Origin: Demequina activiva
GTDB taxonomy: Bacteria > Actinomycetota > Actinomycetes > Actinomycetales > Demequinaceae
Direction of reading: 5' to 3'
DNA length: 64,000 nt
Assembly (NCBI RefSeq): GCF_016862815.1
Contig: NZ_BONR01000004.1
Coordinates: 186,001 to 250,000 of the forward strand
Shown here: piece after piece, positions 34,674 through 39,761 of the stretch
Layout: each line of letters opens with the position of its first letter
How positions within the stretch are numbered: position 1 is the first letter of the stretch
The notes under the pieces: generated by a model
Seen by the model: only the letters and a program-made list of their open reading frames with translations
Told to the model about the DNA's origin: nothing
Databases searched by the model: none
Made by a program: the position numbers and the translations under genes

Positions 34674-34739
34674 GCCTCGACGCTAGTGCGCGGACCCGGG
34701 TCCAGAGCAGGCAGCAGTGGCACCCGTACGATGCGAAGC

Positions 34740-35177
34740 ATGGGTATTCGGTTGGAGAACGTGGGAATCGCCGTGCGGGATCTTGATGCCGCGGTCAACT
34801 TCTTCACGGACCTAGGGCTCACCCTCGTGGGCCAGGACGAGGTCAGCGGCGAGTGGGCCTCGACCGCCGTGGGCCTGGACGGCAATCACGCCACGATCGC
34901 GATGCTCCAGACCCCGGACGGCCACGGCCAGATCGAACTCTTCGAGTACATCCACCCTGACGCGATCGAGACCGAGCCCACGCAGCCGAACGAGATCGGC
35001 ATGCACCGCGTGGCGTTCTCGGTAGACGACATCGACGCGTCGCTCGCGATCGCCGCCCGGCATGGGTGCCACCCGCTGCGCGGAGTCGCGACCTACGAGG
35101 AGCTCTACAAGCTCACCTATGTGCGCGGGCCCAGCGGGATCATCGTGATGCTTGCGCAAGACCTTCGGAAGCGCTGA
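34740..35177 (+). CDS. VOC family (glyoxalase-fold) protein
   Basis: A 145-residue vicinal-oxygen-chelate fold protein. It has two beta-alpha-beta-beta-beta modules, RLENVGIAVRDLDAAVNFFTDLG and GMHRVAFSVDDIDASL. Possible metal ligands are E in QIELFEY and H in GMHRVAF. The reaction is not identifiable; glyoxalase, dioxygenase and resistance roles are all known in the fold. TACGAT lies seven bases before the ATG. It marks the last ordinary high-G+C gene before the island. Confidence 0.85.
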   Translation: MGIRLENVGIAVRDLDAAVNFFTDLGLTLVGQDEVSGEWASTAVGLDGNHATIAMLQTPDGHGQIELFEYIHPDAIETEPTQPNEIGMHRVAFSVDDIDASLAIAARHGCHPLRGVATYEELYKLTYVRGPSGIIVMLAQDLRKR

Positions 35178-35331
35178 CTGCGCCGCTGCCGCGCGAGAGT
35201 GAACCGAGGCTCCCAATGGAATAACTCGTCAAGCCGTCCCTGGTGACTGCTACGACAGCGCCGCCGGTGTCGACGATTCTGAAGCGTGGCTGAACGACTG
35301 CCGATCAGCCGCGGATGGTGCAGGCACTCTG

Positions 35332-35360
35332 TTGAGCGCACCCCGCGACGGTGATACATT
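35332..35360 (+). promoter_or_regulatory. Promoter of the tRNA-like small RNA
   Basis: TTGAGC (35332-35337) and TACATT (35355-35360) are separated by exactly 17 bases, close to a housekeeping sigma promoter. Transcription would start near 35367. No start codon with a ribosome site follows, and the first strong structure is the RNA described next. Confidence 0.7.
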
Positions 35361-35366
35361 TGTGGC

Positions 35367-35537
35367 ACACGCAAGTGAGGGCATCTGGCAAGACCACCCC
35401 CGGTTCGCGACCGGAATGCTCACAGAAACGGGAGACCCAGGTTCAATTCCTGGCGGTTGGAGGACCGTAGCTCAGTGCTAGAGCGCCGTGTTTCCTAAGC
35501 GAGGGGCCAGCCGCAAGGCGGGCCCCTCGCCCTTTTT
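35367..35537 (+). ncRNA. Small RNA with circularly permuted tRNA-like domain
   Basis: About 170 nt. The core reads like a tRNA whose 3' half precedes its 5' half. In order: ACGG (35428-35431, anticodon-stem 3' strand), five-base variable loop, T-stem CCAGG/CCTGG with loop TTCAATT (35437-35453), acceptor strand CGGTT, tetraloop GGAG, acceptor strand GACCG (35463-35467), TA linker, D-stem GCTC/GAGC with loop AGTGCTA (35470-35484), G, then CCGT (35486-35489) closing with ACGG. Spacings match tRNA exactly. GAAAC/GTTTC (35425-35429, 35490-35494) can extend or replace the closing stem. An upstream domain closes with GTGAG/CTCAC around hairpins. A strong promoter and terminator flank it. The layout recalls the tRNA-like module of bacterial Y RNAs (YrlA), but no Ro60/Rsr gene is present. 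Confidence 0.75.
35499..35537 (+). terminator. Rho-independent terminator of the tRNA-like RNA
   Basis: GCGAGGGGCC and GGCCCCTCGC form a ten-pair stem with a short G+C-rich loop, followed by CCTTTTT. This is the most canonical intrinsic terminator in the window. The T-run is on the + side only, so it ends the small RNA rather than the leftward gene that stops at 35547. Confidence 0.9.
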
Positions 35538-35546
35538 CTGTTGGGA

Positions 35547-36386
35547 CTAACGAGACGACACGATCTCGGCGATCTCTTCAGCGGTTACCTCGAGCGGGGC
35601 GTAGTACATCGACACAAAGCCGCGAAGCTTTCGCTGTCTCTGAGCCTCGTTCGCGCCCTTGGGCGCATGGGGTCCGTCGAACCAGTCGGCCTCAATAATC
35701 CGTAGCCACTCATCTCGCGGCAGCGTGTGCCTGAGTCCGTCGTTCACTTGTTCGGAAAGGCGTTTCGAAACGGCTAGGGCCGCAATCAAATGGCTGAAGC
35801 CGAGTTCCACCCTGTCACCGATGGCGTATGTGCGGATCTTTGTGCTAGTAAGCTTGAGCCAGAGTCTCTTTGAGTCCTCCGTGATCAACGCGCAATCGTC
35901 CTCGAACTCACGGTCAGCAAATCCGCCTTGGTGGATGTGTTTGTTGCGTGAGTTGCGCACATAGTTGAATACCTGTTTCGAGTCCATCGCCAGGTAGCCG
36001 CCTGCAAGCGAGTCGAAATGATCGTGCATTGATTTTGCGTTGAAGTTTCCCTTCGGGTGTTTGCGTTTGGGCGCCACCGCTTTGAGCGAGTCAACGGATT
36101 GGCGCATCATGTCTTCGTGCACCGCAAGAACTCCCGGAACGGCCAGTTGGGCTAGTAGCTCATCGCTATTGGAGAGGATCCGCTTGGCCTCCTGGGGTGT
36201 CATGTTGAATCGCCTGACGTGCTTGATCTCTGGGAAGAGCTCGCCCAGAGTGTGCGAGGATCCATCGGTAAGTTCAAGCAGTTTCGAAGAGATGTGGGCG
36301 CCCACCAAGAGCCCCATCACTGTGTCGTTGATCCTTATTCGTGTCTCACGTACATCGCGAAACCCCGGATAGTGGATTACTCCCAT
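35547..36386 (-). CDS. Unknown protein with HEPN-like R-x5-H motif
   Basis: A 279-residue soluble protein I cannot assign to a named family. The segment VRNSRNKHIHQGG (around residue 145) resembles the R-x4-6-H motif of HEPN ribonucleases, and the surroundings are predicted helical. Codon use is much less G+C-biased than neighbours, a sign of horizontal transfer. The ATG at 36386 lies six bases after TAGTCT, so the message may be leaderless. The gene ends 10 bases past the terminator of the tRNA-like RNA, tail to tail. If HEPN is right it could be an RNase toxin or defence effector; this is inference only. Confidence 0.7.
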   Translation of the reverse strand: MGVIHYPGFRDVRETRIRINDTVMGLLVGAHISSKLLELTDGSSHTLGELFPEIKHVRRFNMTPQEAKRILSNSDELLAQLAVPGVLAVHEDMMRQSVDSLKAVAPKRKHPKGNFNAKSMHDHFDSLAGGYLAMDSKQVFNYVRNSRNKHIHQGGFADREFEDDCALITEDSKRLWLKLTSTKIRTYAIGDRVELGFSHLIAALAVSKRLSEQVNDGLRHTLPRDEWLRIIEADWFDGPHAPKGANEAQRQRKLRGFVSMYYAPLEVTAEEIAEIVSSR

Positions 36387-37160
36387 GCGCCGAGACTAGC
36401 GCGGCGACATCTCCGCTTCACTCTTCACAGGATCACACCTTGGGATTTCTGAGGCGCGCTCAACTCGCAAACACACGTCGCACCGATCGGGACCGCTGGG
36501 AGCTGCTCGCGGATCGTGGAGCGCCGTCAAGCCCGCGAGTTGTCGATCCACCCCGTCAGCGCTTGCAAACAGGGGCCTTGCCAGTTCGCCCCCGCGCGCG
36601 TGTCAGACCGGCGGTCTAGCGCGCCACTACAGAACCGATTTACGGCCCTCAGGGGAGAGTTGTCGCTTGGTTGGACGACGACGGAGAAACGTGCCGTGAC
36701 CTCGCCGGCAAAGTGAACGCGTAGCTTTTTGGCGACTGCGTCATACTCGCTAAGGGGACAGCATGTAGGTCACTTCGTGAGCGGGAGCTTCCGCGATGCA
36801 CGCGGCGCTGTGGTCGGGTTCCTTGCCGGCGCGAGCGGTGAGCCCCCGAAGCCAGCGCGTCCTGCGCGTGCTGCTCGCCCGGCACGCCCCGTACGGTGCG
36901 CCCGCATCGCACGCCCCGCGAGGTCGACGTCCTGGTCGGCGCTCAACTTCGATGCCTACGTGTCGGGCGCGTGGTGACAGACAATCCATGGTGTGATGCT
37001 CGCCGAGTCTCTCGCCGGCTAGTGGCTGGCGGCGGGCGTCCGCCCGAAGTCCGTCCCAATGGCCCTGTGCCAAATTGCAGTCGTGAATGCCCCGCGCCTG
37101 TTGGCTCCACTAGTAGGCTCCGTGACAGGAAAAGCCTTGCTATGGAGAAAGGGTCTACGC
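36387..37160. other. Non-coding or decayed part of the island
   Basis: Nothing convincingly coding is seen in these 774 bases. Short frames exist, including a Pro-Ala-Arg-rich one at 36729-36977, but it starts with TTG without a ribosome site and has low-complexity repeats. A perfect short palindrome AGACC-GGC-GGTCT sits at 36604-36616. The stretch separates two divergent island genes, so it should hold their promoters, but no clear pair was recognised for the rightward gene. Confidence 0.5.
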
Positions 37161-38027
37161 GTGATCGTCTTCTATGCGGATGAATGTGGCGATCACTCGA
37201 TGGCCACCGCGCCTGAGTCGCCCGGGGCGCTGAAGAGCGGAGTGAGCCCGTACTTCGTATTTGCGACGGTTGGGATCAGAGATTCATCTCGCTCCACGCT
37301 TGCTAACGAGCTCGTAGAGGTCAAGGCAAAGCACTTCGGCGAGGACGTTCTCGATCTAGCTTGGGGCGACAGTGAGATCAAGGGACGCTATCTCTACCGA
37401 GCGAGCCGGAGTGTGGCAAACGGCAAGATTCTCAGCAAACCCGCTGCTTTCGGCCGGCTTGACTCGCCGGAGAAGGTGTCCGCGCTTGTTCACGATCTCG
37501 GGTTGATCTTCTCGAAGTATCGGCCGCTCATATTCGCTGTAACCGTCGACAAGGTGGAGATTCTGAAGCAGGGGCAAGACCATCAGCGCAGTCCGCTGGG
37601 TGTCGCGTATGCATACATTCATCAGCGAATCGCGCTTGGCCTTGAGCGACTCTACGCTGGCGACTCCGCCATCATCGTCGCGGATCAGCAGGCGGACCAC
37701 GAGCGCTTCTTTCGATCAGGCGAGATGAATCGAGTCCGCGACGACCTCTCCCAACACCTCTATGTCAGGCCCAACTTTGACCTTGTGCTGGACAAGCCAC
37801 TGTGGGTGGACACCGACCTGAGCTCTTGGGACCGGGAAATCATTCAACTCGCAGATATCGTTGCGTACACAGCGACGGAGACGATGAAGCGTGGGTCTGC
37901 ACCTGACGAACTCTGCTTCCTCTGGAAGCAGATACTCCCGTGCTTCGCAATCCACTGGAGCTCTGGCGAGGTTATCGGAGGAGGGCTCTCCTACTACCCG
38001 AAGAAGGCGCGGACTCCGCGGATATGA
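37161..38027 (+). CDS. DUF3800 domain protein
   Basis: A 288-residue protein of the DUF3800 family, thought to have an RNase H-like fold and often found in phages, islands and defence loci. The start VIVFYADECGDHSM carries the acidic DExGD motif. Later acidic residues fit a metal site: VADQQADHERFF and QLADIVAYTATE. The GTG at 37161 has an AGAAAGGG ribosome site; an in-frame start at 37059 has none. Codon usage is again less G+C-biased than the chromosome. Target and activity are unknown. It may act with the HEPN-like protein and the small RNA of the island. Confidence 0.85.
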   Translation: MIVFYADECGDHSMATAPESPGALKSGVSPYFVFATVGIRDSSRSTLANELVEVKAKHFGEDVLDLAWGDSEIKGRYLYRASRSVANGKILSKPAAFGRLDSPEKVSALVHDLGLIFSKYRPLIFAVTVDKVEILKQGQDHQRSPLGVAYAYIHQRIALGLERLYAGDSAIIVADQQADHERFFRSGEMNRVRDDLSQHLYVRPNFDLVLDKPLWVDTDLSSWDREIIQLADIVAYTATETMKRGSAPDELCFLWKQILPCFAIHWSSGEVIGGGLSYYPKKARTPRI

Positions 38028-38284
38028 GAAACCGGCGCAATCGCAAGGCCCACCGGATTCCAGAAGGCCGAGCGTACGCCGGCCAGAACATGGTACCCGA
38101 GTCCTGGCTGGGCTCGCAAGCGCACTCTTCACTTGATCGAGCAACACAACTCGGCCACTACTACGGGTCACTCGGGGGCTTCGTTCCGATCCCGGAGGCT
38201 AAAGCGTCACAGGGTCGTCGGTCAACCCGTCCCAGCACCACAGGCGCCCTCCCTTGGTTCGGAGCACAGTCCTGTGCCCCCTAA
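38024..38284 (+). CDS. Possible small coupled gene after DUF3800
   Basis: An 86-codon frame whose ATG overlaps the DUF3800 stop (ATGA). The product is basic at the start (MRNRRNRKAHRIPEGRAY) and contains ATQLGHYYGSLGGFVPIP. No family is recognised and there is no independent ribosome site, so it depends on coupling. The overlap and frame length make it plausible; lack of clear codon bias keeps it uncertain. The 240 bases after it hold no gene, only a small hairpin (ACTCC-AAAG-GGAGT, 38477-38490). Confidence 0.35.
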   Translation: MRNRRNRKAHRIPEGRAYAGQNMVPESWLGSQAHSSLDRATQLGHYYGSLGGFVPIPEAKASQGRRSTRPSTTGALPWFGAQSCAP

Positions 38285-38525
38285 GGAGGTCGCGGGTTGA
38301 CGGGCGGCGCGTAGGCGCGACGCTAGAGGGTCAGATCGAAGCACTCACTGAAAGTTTCGCGGCCACCTACACCGATAGGTCTGCACGCGGGTCGCACGGT
38401 CGGCCATCGAGCGGCGCTTGCGCCCGCCGCTGGCTGGGCGCACGGCCGCTCTGGGGTGCGGGTGGATTGGCGATTCACTCCAAAGGGAGTACTGCTGTGC
38501 ACCCGCTGCAGCGACAAGGCCGCGT

Positions 38526-39761
38526 CTAGGAGTACCGCGCCGCCAGCTCGAGCACGCTCGCCTCGAACGCATTCAGCGCCACCTCGACATCGTCAGCCCG
38601 GACGTCCTCGTCGCGGTGGTGGGAGATGCCGTCCTTGCAGCGGATGAAGAGCATCGCGTAATCACAAAGATCCGCGATGGCCATGGCGTCGTGTCCCGCC
38701 TTGGACAGCAGGCGCATCGGCTCGCTGTCGCCCGTCGAGCGAATCCCCGCCTCCACGGCGGAAGCCAACGAGGGTGCCACGTGGGTCGCGCGCGCGGCGT
38801 GCAGCTCGGACACCTCGAAGGCGAGGTTCCGGGCAGCGGCGGCCTTGAGCCCGGCCTCCTCGATCTCGCGCCACACGTCATCGCGAAGAGCATCCGTCTC
38901 CGCCCGCAGGTCCAGCGAGAACTCGACCCGCCCCGGGATCACATTCATGGCGCCGGGGAAGGCCCGCAGCCTGCCCACCGTGCCGATCGCTCCGGCATCC
39001 CGCGCGAGCGTCTCGACGGCGGACACCACCTCGGAGGCGCCCAACAGAGCATCGCGCCGGCGCCCATACGGCATGCCGCCTGCGTGCCCGGCCTCGCCCA
39101 CCATCTCGAACTCGAAGCGTCGCGCGCCCATGATGCCTTCGACCACGCCCAACGGCTTGCCCGCGTCCTGCAGCAGCGGGCCCTGCTCGATGTGGGCCTC
39201 GAGGTACCCGATGATGGGCTGCCCCACCAGCGAGGCCTCCCCCACGGCATCCGGGTCCAGCCCGAACGCCCTGTAGGCATCCCGCAGGGTCACGCCGTGC
39301 GCGTCTCGCAGGGTCCACCACGAGTCCTGCCACGTCCCGGCCACCGCGCAGGATCCCAGCAGCGTGCGGCCAAAGCGCGTGCCCTCCTCGTCCGCGAAGC
39401 CGATCACCTCGAGACCGAAGGGCAGCGACACGCCGCGCTCGCGCAAGCGCCCCGCGACCGCGATCGCCATGAGCGTGCCCAGGATGCCGTCGTACCTACC
39501 CGCTCCCGGCACTGTGTCCAGGTGAGAGCCCAGCAGCAGCACCGGCGCATCGGCCGTCGGTCCTGCCAAGGTGCCCCGCTGGTTGCCGGCGGCGTCCTGC
39601 CAGGCCTCCAGGCCCGCATCGGCCATCCACTCGCCTACCGTCCAGTTGGTGCGAGCGTGCTCAGGGGTCAGGTACGAGCGCTCGATGCCGTCGTTGGACG
39701 CCGTGTGCGTCGCCAGCACGTTGCAGCGCGCGAGCACCTCGGCGGCGTCGAAAGCGCTCAC
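38526..39761 (-). CDS. allC: Allantoate amidohydrolase
   Basis: A 411-residue M20-family metal hydrolase releasing ammonia and CO2 from allantoate to give ureidoglycine. Metal and catalytic motifs: LGSHLDTVPGAGRYDG, FADEEGTRFG, EAHIEQGP and the late KAGHDAMAIAD. The EAHIEQGP form is typical of the allantoate/ureido branch. The GTG at 39761 overlaps the stop of the transaminase gene (GTGA); an in-frame codon at 39911 would lie inside that gene. Last gene of a four-gene ureide operon read leftward. Confidence 0.93.
   Translation of the reverse strand: MSAFDAAEVLARCNVLATHTASNDGIERSYLTPEHARTNWTVGEWMADAGLEAWQDAAGNQRGTLAGPTADAPVLLLGSHLDTVPGAGRYDGILGTLMAIAVAGRLRERGVSLPFGLEVIGFADEEGTRFGRTLLGSCAVAGTWQDSWWTLRDAHGVTLRDAYRAFGLDPDAVGEASLVGQPIIGYLEAHIEQGPLLQDAGKPLGVVEGIMGARRFEFEMVGEAGHAGGMPYGRRRDALLGASEVVSAVETLARDAGAIGTVGRLRAFPGAMNVIPGRVEFSLDLRAETDALRDDVWREIEEAGLKAAAARNLAFEVSELHAARATHVAPSLASAVEAGIRSTGDSEPMRLLSKAGHDAMAIADLCDYAMLFIRCKDGISHHRDEDVRADDVEVALNAFEASVLELAARYS

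Follow-up and report, generated by a model that had tools for sequence, protein, structure and literature searches.

The closest precedent for the locus described here is AbiF-RCd22, although both its protein and its RNA differ. AbiF is a HEPN toxin (Abi_2) that is neutralised by the non-coding RNA RCd22 (motif RF03085), showing that control of a HEPN RNase by an RNA, as proposed below, exists (PMC12373285). Both loci have an RNxxxH-class motif in a HEPN-type RNase (putative in our case), a small structured RNA of their own adjoining the gene and a defence or mobile context, whereas the AbiF RNA is a repeated motif of about 36 nt upstream of its gene and here a single tRNA mimic of about 170 nt lies downstream and usually in convergent orientation. 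No Rfam match to RF03085 was found around this RNA or elsewhere in the window (the whole stretch of 64,000 nt that was analysed). In the type III toxin-antitoxin systems (ToxIN, CptNI, TenpNI) an RNase is restrained directly by an RNA, a logic that may by analogy apply here; however, ToxN-type toxins are not HEPN proteins, and their antitoxins, tandem repeats, are encoded ahead of the toxin gene (PMC12373285), whereas in our case one copy of the RNA follows the ORF.

A permuted module with a T-arm, a closed acceptor arm, a D-arm and an anticodon-like closing stem is also found in the bacterial Y RNA YrlA (RF02553). Its partner is Rsr/TROVE, bound through the outer stem of the RNA, while in the present case it is a HEPN-like protein; in place of the upstream part of YrlA there is a 5' three-way junction carrying an anticodon-loop-like hairpin, and some members have no acceptor arm. 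In work on RNA repair in Salmonella, the tRNA-like domain of YrlA has been proposed to be a competitive inhibitor of an anticodon nuclease (PMC7790460), for which a HEPN gene of Gifsy-1 was a candidate (PMC9879122). The toxin HepT of the HEPN-MNT systems and the Gifsy-1 protein HepS, which share the HEPN RNase motif with the partner protein, are its best structural matches, although HepT pairs with a protein antitoxin, MNT. To our knowledge, no tRNA-like RNA has been described together with HepT or HepS.

The RNA is part of an islet at 34700-38540 (about 34.7-38.5 kb) that contains a glyoxalase gene, the RNA, the HEPN gene and a DUF3800 gene, and that is absent in congeners, where the flanking genes lie 55-220 bp apart. 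An earlier note had recognised that a small RNA of permuted tRNA-like fold has a gene of its own here and had not linked it to the convergent ORF at 35547-36386. All the elements of the permuted RNA that it named were recovered and are given below with the partner gene; the promoter-like boxes, the closing helix and the three arms were read directly from the sequence.

35332-35360, plus strand: promoter-like pair, -35 box TTGAGC (35332-35337) and -10 box TACATT (35355-35360), 17-bp spacer.
35367-35537, plus strand: RNA gene of about 170 nt, its start placed from the -10 box and its end at the T-tract.
35375-35423, plus strand: 5' three-way junction of P1 (GTGAG(GG)CAT / ATG-CTCAC), P2 (TGG-CAAGA-CCA) and P3, from the covariation of P1 and the folds of homologues.
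35400-35414, plus strand: P3 hairpin CCGG-TTCGCGA-CCGG with a 7-nt anticodon-loop-like loop (consensus YUCRNRR), from covariation and a constant distance to the module.
35428-35489, plus strand: permuted tRNA-like module, from the Rfam YrlA match, covariation (closing helix, acceptor, T stem) and 63.6 bits with the covariance model R1.
35428-35431 and 35486-35489, plus strand: closing helix, ACGG and CCGT, respectively; GAGAC lies between ACGG and the T-arm.
35437-35453, plus strand: T-arm with loop TTCAATT.
35454-35467, plus strand: acceptor arm CGGTT-GGAG-GACCG, followed by TA.
35470-35484, plus strand: D-arm.
35499-35537, plus strand: intrinsic terminator, hairpin GCGAGGGGCC/GGCCCCTCGC followed by TTTTT, from sequence and fold.
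35547-36386, minus strand: HEPN-like protein of 279 aa, convergent partner of the RNA, from linkage at 21/22 intact loci, an AF2 model and HEPN structural matches.
35931-35948, minus strand: RNxxxH (codons R147-N148-x3-H152), the HEPN RNase motif, invariant in alignments.

The terminator is a strong GC-rich hairpin with its T5 tract, as had been claimed, whereas the promoter proposed with it is present but weak, matching 8/12 consensus positions and falling under the threshold of a strict promoter scan; a TANNNT box is also found at a similar place upstream of homologous RNAs. The minimum free energy fold of the RNA (z -2.4) contains the T, acceptor and D arms and the 5' branched domain, and it closes the module with GGGAGAC/GUUUCCU, not with ACGG/CCGU. 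GC replaces GG in the D-loop, in agreement with the previous description, but the claim of exact tRNA length for every spacer went too far, since the acceptor has 5 bp versus 7 and the anticodon stem 4 bp versus 5. A functional permuted tRNA would have full acceptor strands with room for CCA and would form an anticodon loop on circularisation; in this RNA the 5-bp acceptor is closed by a tetraloop and the closing helix opens to the 5' domain.

Homologous RNAs support a dedicated gene with this fold. Register shifts of 0-1 nt hide the closing helix and the acceptor in the MAFFT/RNAalifold consensus, and for this reason covariation was assessed by swapping strands in 20,000 permutations with both registers allowed. 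In these permutations, which ignore relatedness apart from the thinning of near-identical rows, the closing (anticodon-like) helix (205 vs 171±8), the acceptor helix (138 vs 90±7, in the 15 RNAs having one), the T stem (177 vs 136±6), these three among 18 representative RNAs, and the P3 stem (153 vs 79±13) each gave 0/20,000, and P1 (238 vs 211±8) gave 11/20,000. The two stems for which such a check had been suggested, ACGG/CCGT and CGGTT/GACCG, thus covary across homologues, the view that they are no chance pair of tRNA fragments is borne out, and the 5' three-way-junction domain is real, with both P1 and P3 covarying.

The loop of P3 has 7 nt in the 19 RNAs that contain the 5' domain, with Y at position 1 (17/19), T at 2 (18/19), C at 3 (18/19) and R at 4 (19/19), 6 (18/19) and 7 (19/19). 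It resembles an anticodon loop (Y32 U33 ... R37), and the P3 hairpin may mimic an anticodon arm. A T-loop was also considered for P3 and ruled out, as A occupies the A58 position in only 2/19 loops. The acceptor arm is absent from five homologous RNAs (L115, L116, L119, L120 and L125) and the 5' domain from three (L114, L118 and L120), so strict tRNA mimicry is not essential.

The ORF at 35547-36386 ends 10 nt from the T-tract of the RNA. R147, N148 and H152 of its product are conserved without exception in two alignments (10 and 16 rows), in the arrangement RNxxxH of the HEPN RNase motif (PMC12373285). The AlphaFold model (pLDDT 90) is all-helical and places this motif at the end of helix 134-152, and the best three VIA-align matches among 994 aligned chains, HepT (7bxo, Z 8.4), HepS (9oij, Z 6.2) and Csm6 (5yjc, Z 6.2), are all HEPN RNases, with Z scores that are modest for a helical protein; Foldseek alone returned nothing significant from the PDB. 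Sequence comparison revealed no similar PDB chain, Pfam and NCBIfam gave no meaningful family match, no Abi_2 (PF07751) match was obtained by Pfam in any of the 16 protein members at E 0.1, and PADLOC gave weak matches only, including the RTasHEPN and CARF_HEPN models. The motif thus gives good support, and the modelled fold moderate support, to the assignment as a predicted HEPN protein.

The same RNA directly adjoins 21 of the 22 distinct actinobacterial loci with an intact homologue of this ORF, even though the proteins are mostly only 21-35% identical; with related proteins of any state counted, homologous RNAs were found at 24 loci. The first homologues came from Occultella (L102 = L117) and from plasmids of Mycolicibacterium arabiense (L103), Rhodococcus (L104) and Streptomyces (L105), and in all four the permuted tRNA-like RNA lies right after the stop codon on the opposite strand. 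The exception (L112/L127) is an intact ORF with no RNA found within the stretch examined. Where the ORF is broken or truncated, the RNA is kept at L121, L125 and L135 and missing at L123, L124 and L134/L136. The covariance model R1 finds L121 and L135, both outside its training set, at 54.5 and 59.2 bits, and in the genome of the window the next best match after the RNA itself scores 30 bits. Across 200 genomes, all three R1 matches above 55 bits adjoin the ORF or its remnant, and those at 44-54 bits are Rsr-linked YrlA, tRNA neighbours and a few unassigned permuted RNAs. The pair is patchy, occurring in 5/396, 6/395 and 8/389 genomes; by plain DNA similarity the RNA has no counterpart among 36 congeners, phages or plasmids, a DNA pattern close to the window RNA had no match among the genome contigs, and the protein search gave no relatives in viral contigs. 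The RNA is half of an undescribed HEPN-RNA module of actinobacteria and not an orphan Y RNA.

Several of these pairs have defence genes as neighbours: Pycsar and NACHT genes adjoin the pair in L103, PD-Lambda-5 stands beside it in L116 and L119, a type IIG restriction enzyme in L122 and an HNH gene plus a methylase in L117. Around the pair in L114 and L115 there are only ordinary neighbours. In the two Streptomyces loci L116 and L119 the HEPN gene is located downstream of the PD-Lambda-5_A gene, and in L119 it begins 10 bp after a D12-class DNA methyltransferase gene, as if it were the third gene of that defence operon. A DUF3800 gene is near the pair in two distant genomes (37059-38027 in the window and L120:5169-5933, the latter PDC-M04A in PADLOC) and may be part of the module; Rfam gave no credible match around it.

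The RNA and the convergent ORF probably constitute a two-component toxin-antitoxin or abortive-infection module, in which a HEPN RNase would be restrained by a tRNA-mimic RNA. The ORF product would be a HEPN endoribonuclease, probably dimeric and toxic when free, with tRNA as its probable target and the anticodon loop as a possible site of cleavage. The RNA, whose fold is that of a permuted tRNA mimic with a separate anticodon-loop-like hairpin, would be transcribed from a promoter of its own and would bind the RNase and restrain it as a substrate mimic; the RNase would be released once infection reduced or changed the RNA or the locus was lost. The fold of the RNA, its conserved pairing with the ORF, the motif and the defence neighbours at several loci are observations, whereas RNase activity, toxicity, RNA binding, inhibition, the tRNA target and the trigger are all predictions of this scheme. 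The linkage at 21/22 loci, the RNA outlasting a broken ORF at three loci, the four stems at 0/20,000, RNxxxH, the three HEPN structural matches, the R1 search of 200 genomes, the defence neighbours and the AbiF and YrlA precedents count in favour of it. On the other side stand the RNA missing from L112/L127, the modest Z scores, the non-significant Foldseek result, the RNAs without acceptor arm or 5' domain and the single copy of the RNA, unlike the tandem repeats of type III antitoxins.

The main rival to an antitoxin is an RNA that works as activator, bait or sensor: a tRNA-like cofactor held by the HEPN protein, whose RNase would become active once the bait was cleaved, modified or depleted by phage enzymes. 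The pairing, the defence neighbours and the tRNA likeness fit such a role equally well, but an RNA kept after decay of the ORF (L121, L125 and L135) is more expected of an antitoxin than of an activator, and the activator, bait or sensor role is rated as unlikely.

Considerably less probable is a Y RNA (YrlA) working without Rsr, for example with PNPase, that would share with the HEPN gene only its place as defence-island cargo. The permuted tRNA-like module of YrlA is present, with the same order of T-arm, closed acceptor and D-arm, YrlA matches reach 27.9-37 bits and YrlA RNAs in turn score 37-47 bits on R1. In the window, the segment 35429-35489 scores 27.9 bits against the Rfam YrlA model (E 5e-4 for this stretch), aligned to model positions 23-86 only, which is the tRNA-like part. 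The gathering score of 69 bits is not reached, which is weak evidence because an Rsr-linked actinobacterial YrlA also stays below it (38.5 bits), and the model gives about 28 bits to tRNA-Asp/tRNA-Phe neighbours in nearly every congener as well, so this score alone proves nothing. Against a Y RNA, the HEPN ORF is linked across families and in both orientations, the P1/P2/P3 domain replaces the Rsr-associated region of YrlA, and no match to Rsr/TROVE (PF05731) was obtained in the genome, which is 99.7% complete, whereas a congener with YrlA has such a gene. The earlier proposal of a Y-type RNA with no Rsr nearby thus holds as to Rsr, which is absent from the whole genome, but not as to an orphan, because the RNA is paired with the HEPN-like ORF at conserved loci.

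Other permuted RNAs were encountered in these searches. A DNA pattern for the permuted module returns mostly tandem tRNA genes, plus some YrlA RNAs, and the congener G020 has two to three YrlA-like RNAs in front of an Rsr/TROVE-like gene (L005:1330-1600 and the adjoining ORF). YrlA-like permuted RNAs are also present in IMG/VR viral contigs (L045, L050, L054, L056, L069, L072, L076, L078, L081 and L100), several with a GGTTA motif upstream. At L146, L152, L154, L156 and L158, permuted tRNA-like RNAs, those of L152 and L154 being alike, have no Rsr-like or HEPN ORF detected within about 1.5 kb and may have other partners.

A role as a 3' element acting in cis on the ORF transcript, in its stability, termination or processing, is very improbable for the RNA. 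The RNA is always just downstream of the ORF, as such an element would be, but where it is present it faces the ORF from the other strand at 21/24 loci, and it comes with a promoter-like box and, at several loci, with a terminator of its own. At L114, L118 and L120 it runs in the same direction as the ORF, and a downstream position in either orientation points to an RNA acting in trans. No other RNAs share the strand of the HEPN gene, and no others lack the 5' three-way junction. Chance pairing between the decayed remains of two adjacent tRNA genes, a reading to which the YrlA matches of ordinary tRNA neighbours could lend colour, has a negligible probability, as ARAGORN reported no tRNA in the window, the homologues are conserved beside one protein family and the covariation of the stems refutes it.

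If the RNA does restrain a HEPN RNase, the pair might tentatively stand for a new toxin class, in which RNA regulates a HEPN family that has not been described. The RNA would imitate an entire tRNA piecemeal, with T-arm, acceptor and D-arm permuted and the anticodon-loop-like hairpin set apart, and as a non-productive substrate mimic it would keep a suspected anticodon nuclease in check. Such a HEPN-RNA lineage would be distinct from AbiF/Cas13, and its RNAs could have a common origin with Y-RNA-like modules. The system escapes current annotation, because no Rfam family exists for the RNA and the protein belongs to none in Pfam or NCBIfam nor, clearly, in PADLOC. Cas13 has been discussed as a descendant of HEPN proteins with partner non-coding RNAs, such as AbiF. 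Were a second such family to work with a tRNA-mimic RNA of unrelated structure, HEPN RNases would seem to have come under the control of RNAs on more than one occasion, and the module would give a concrete test of whether the tRNA-like modules of Y RNAs inhibit anticodon nucleases.
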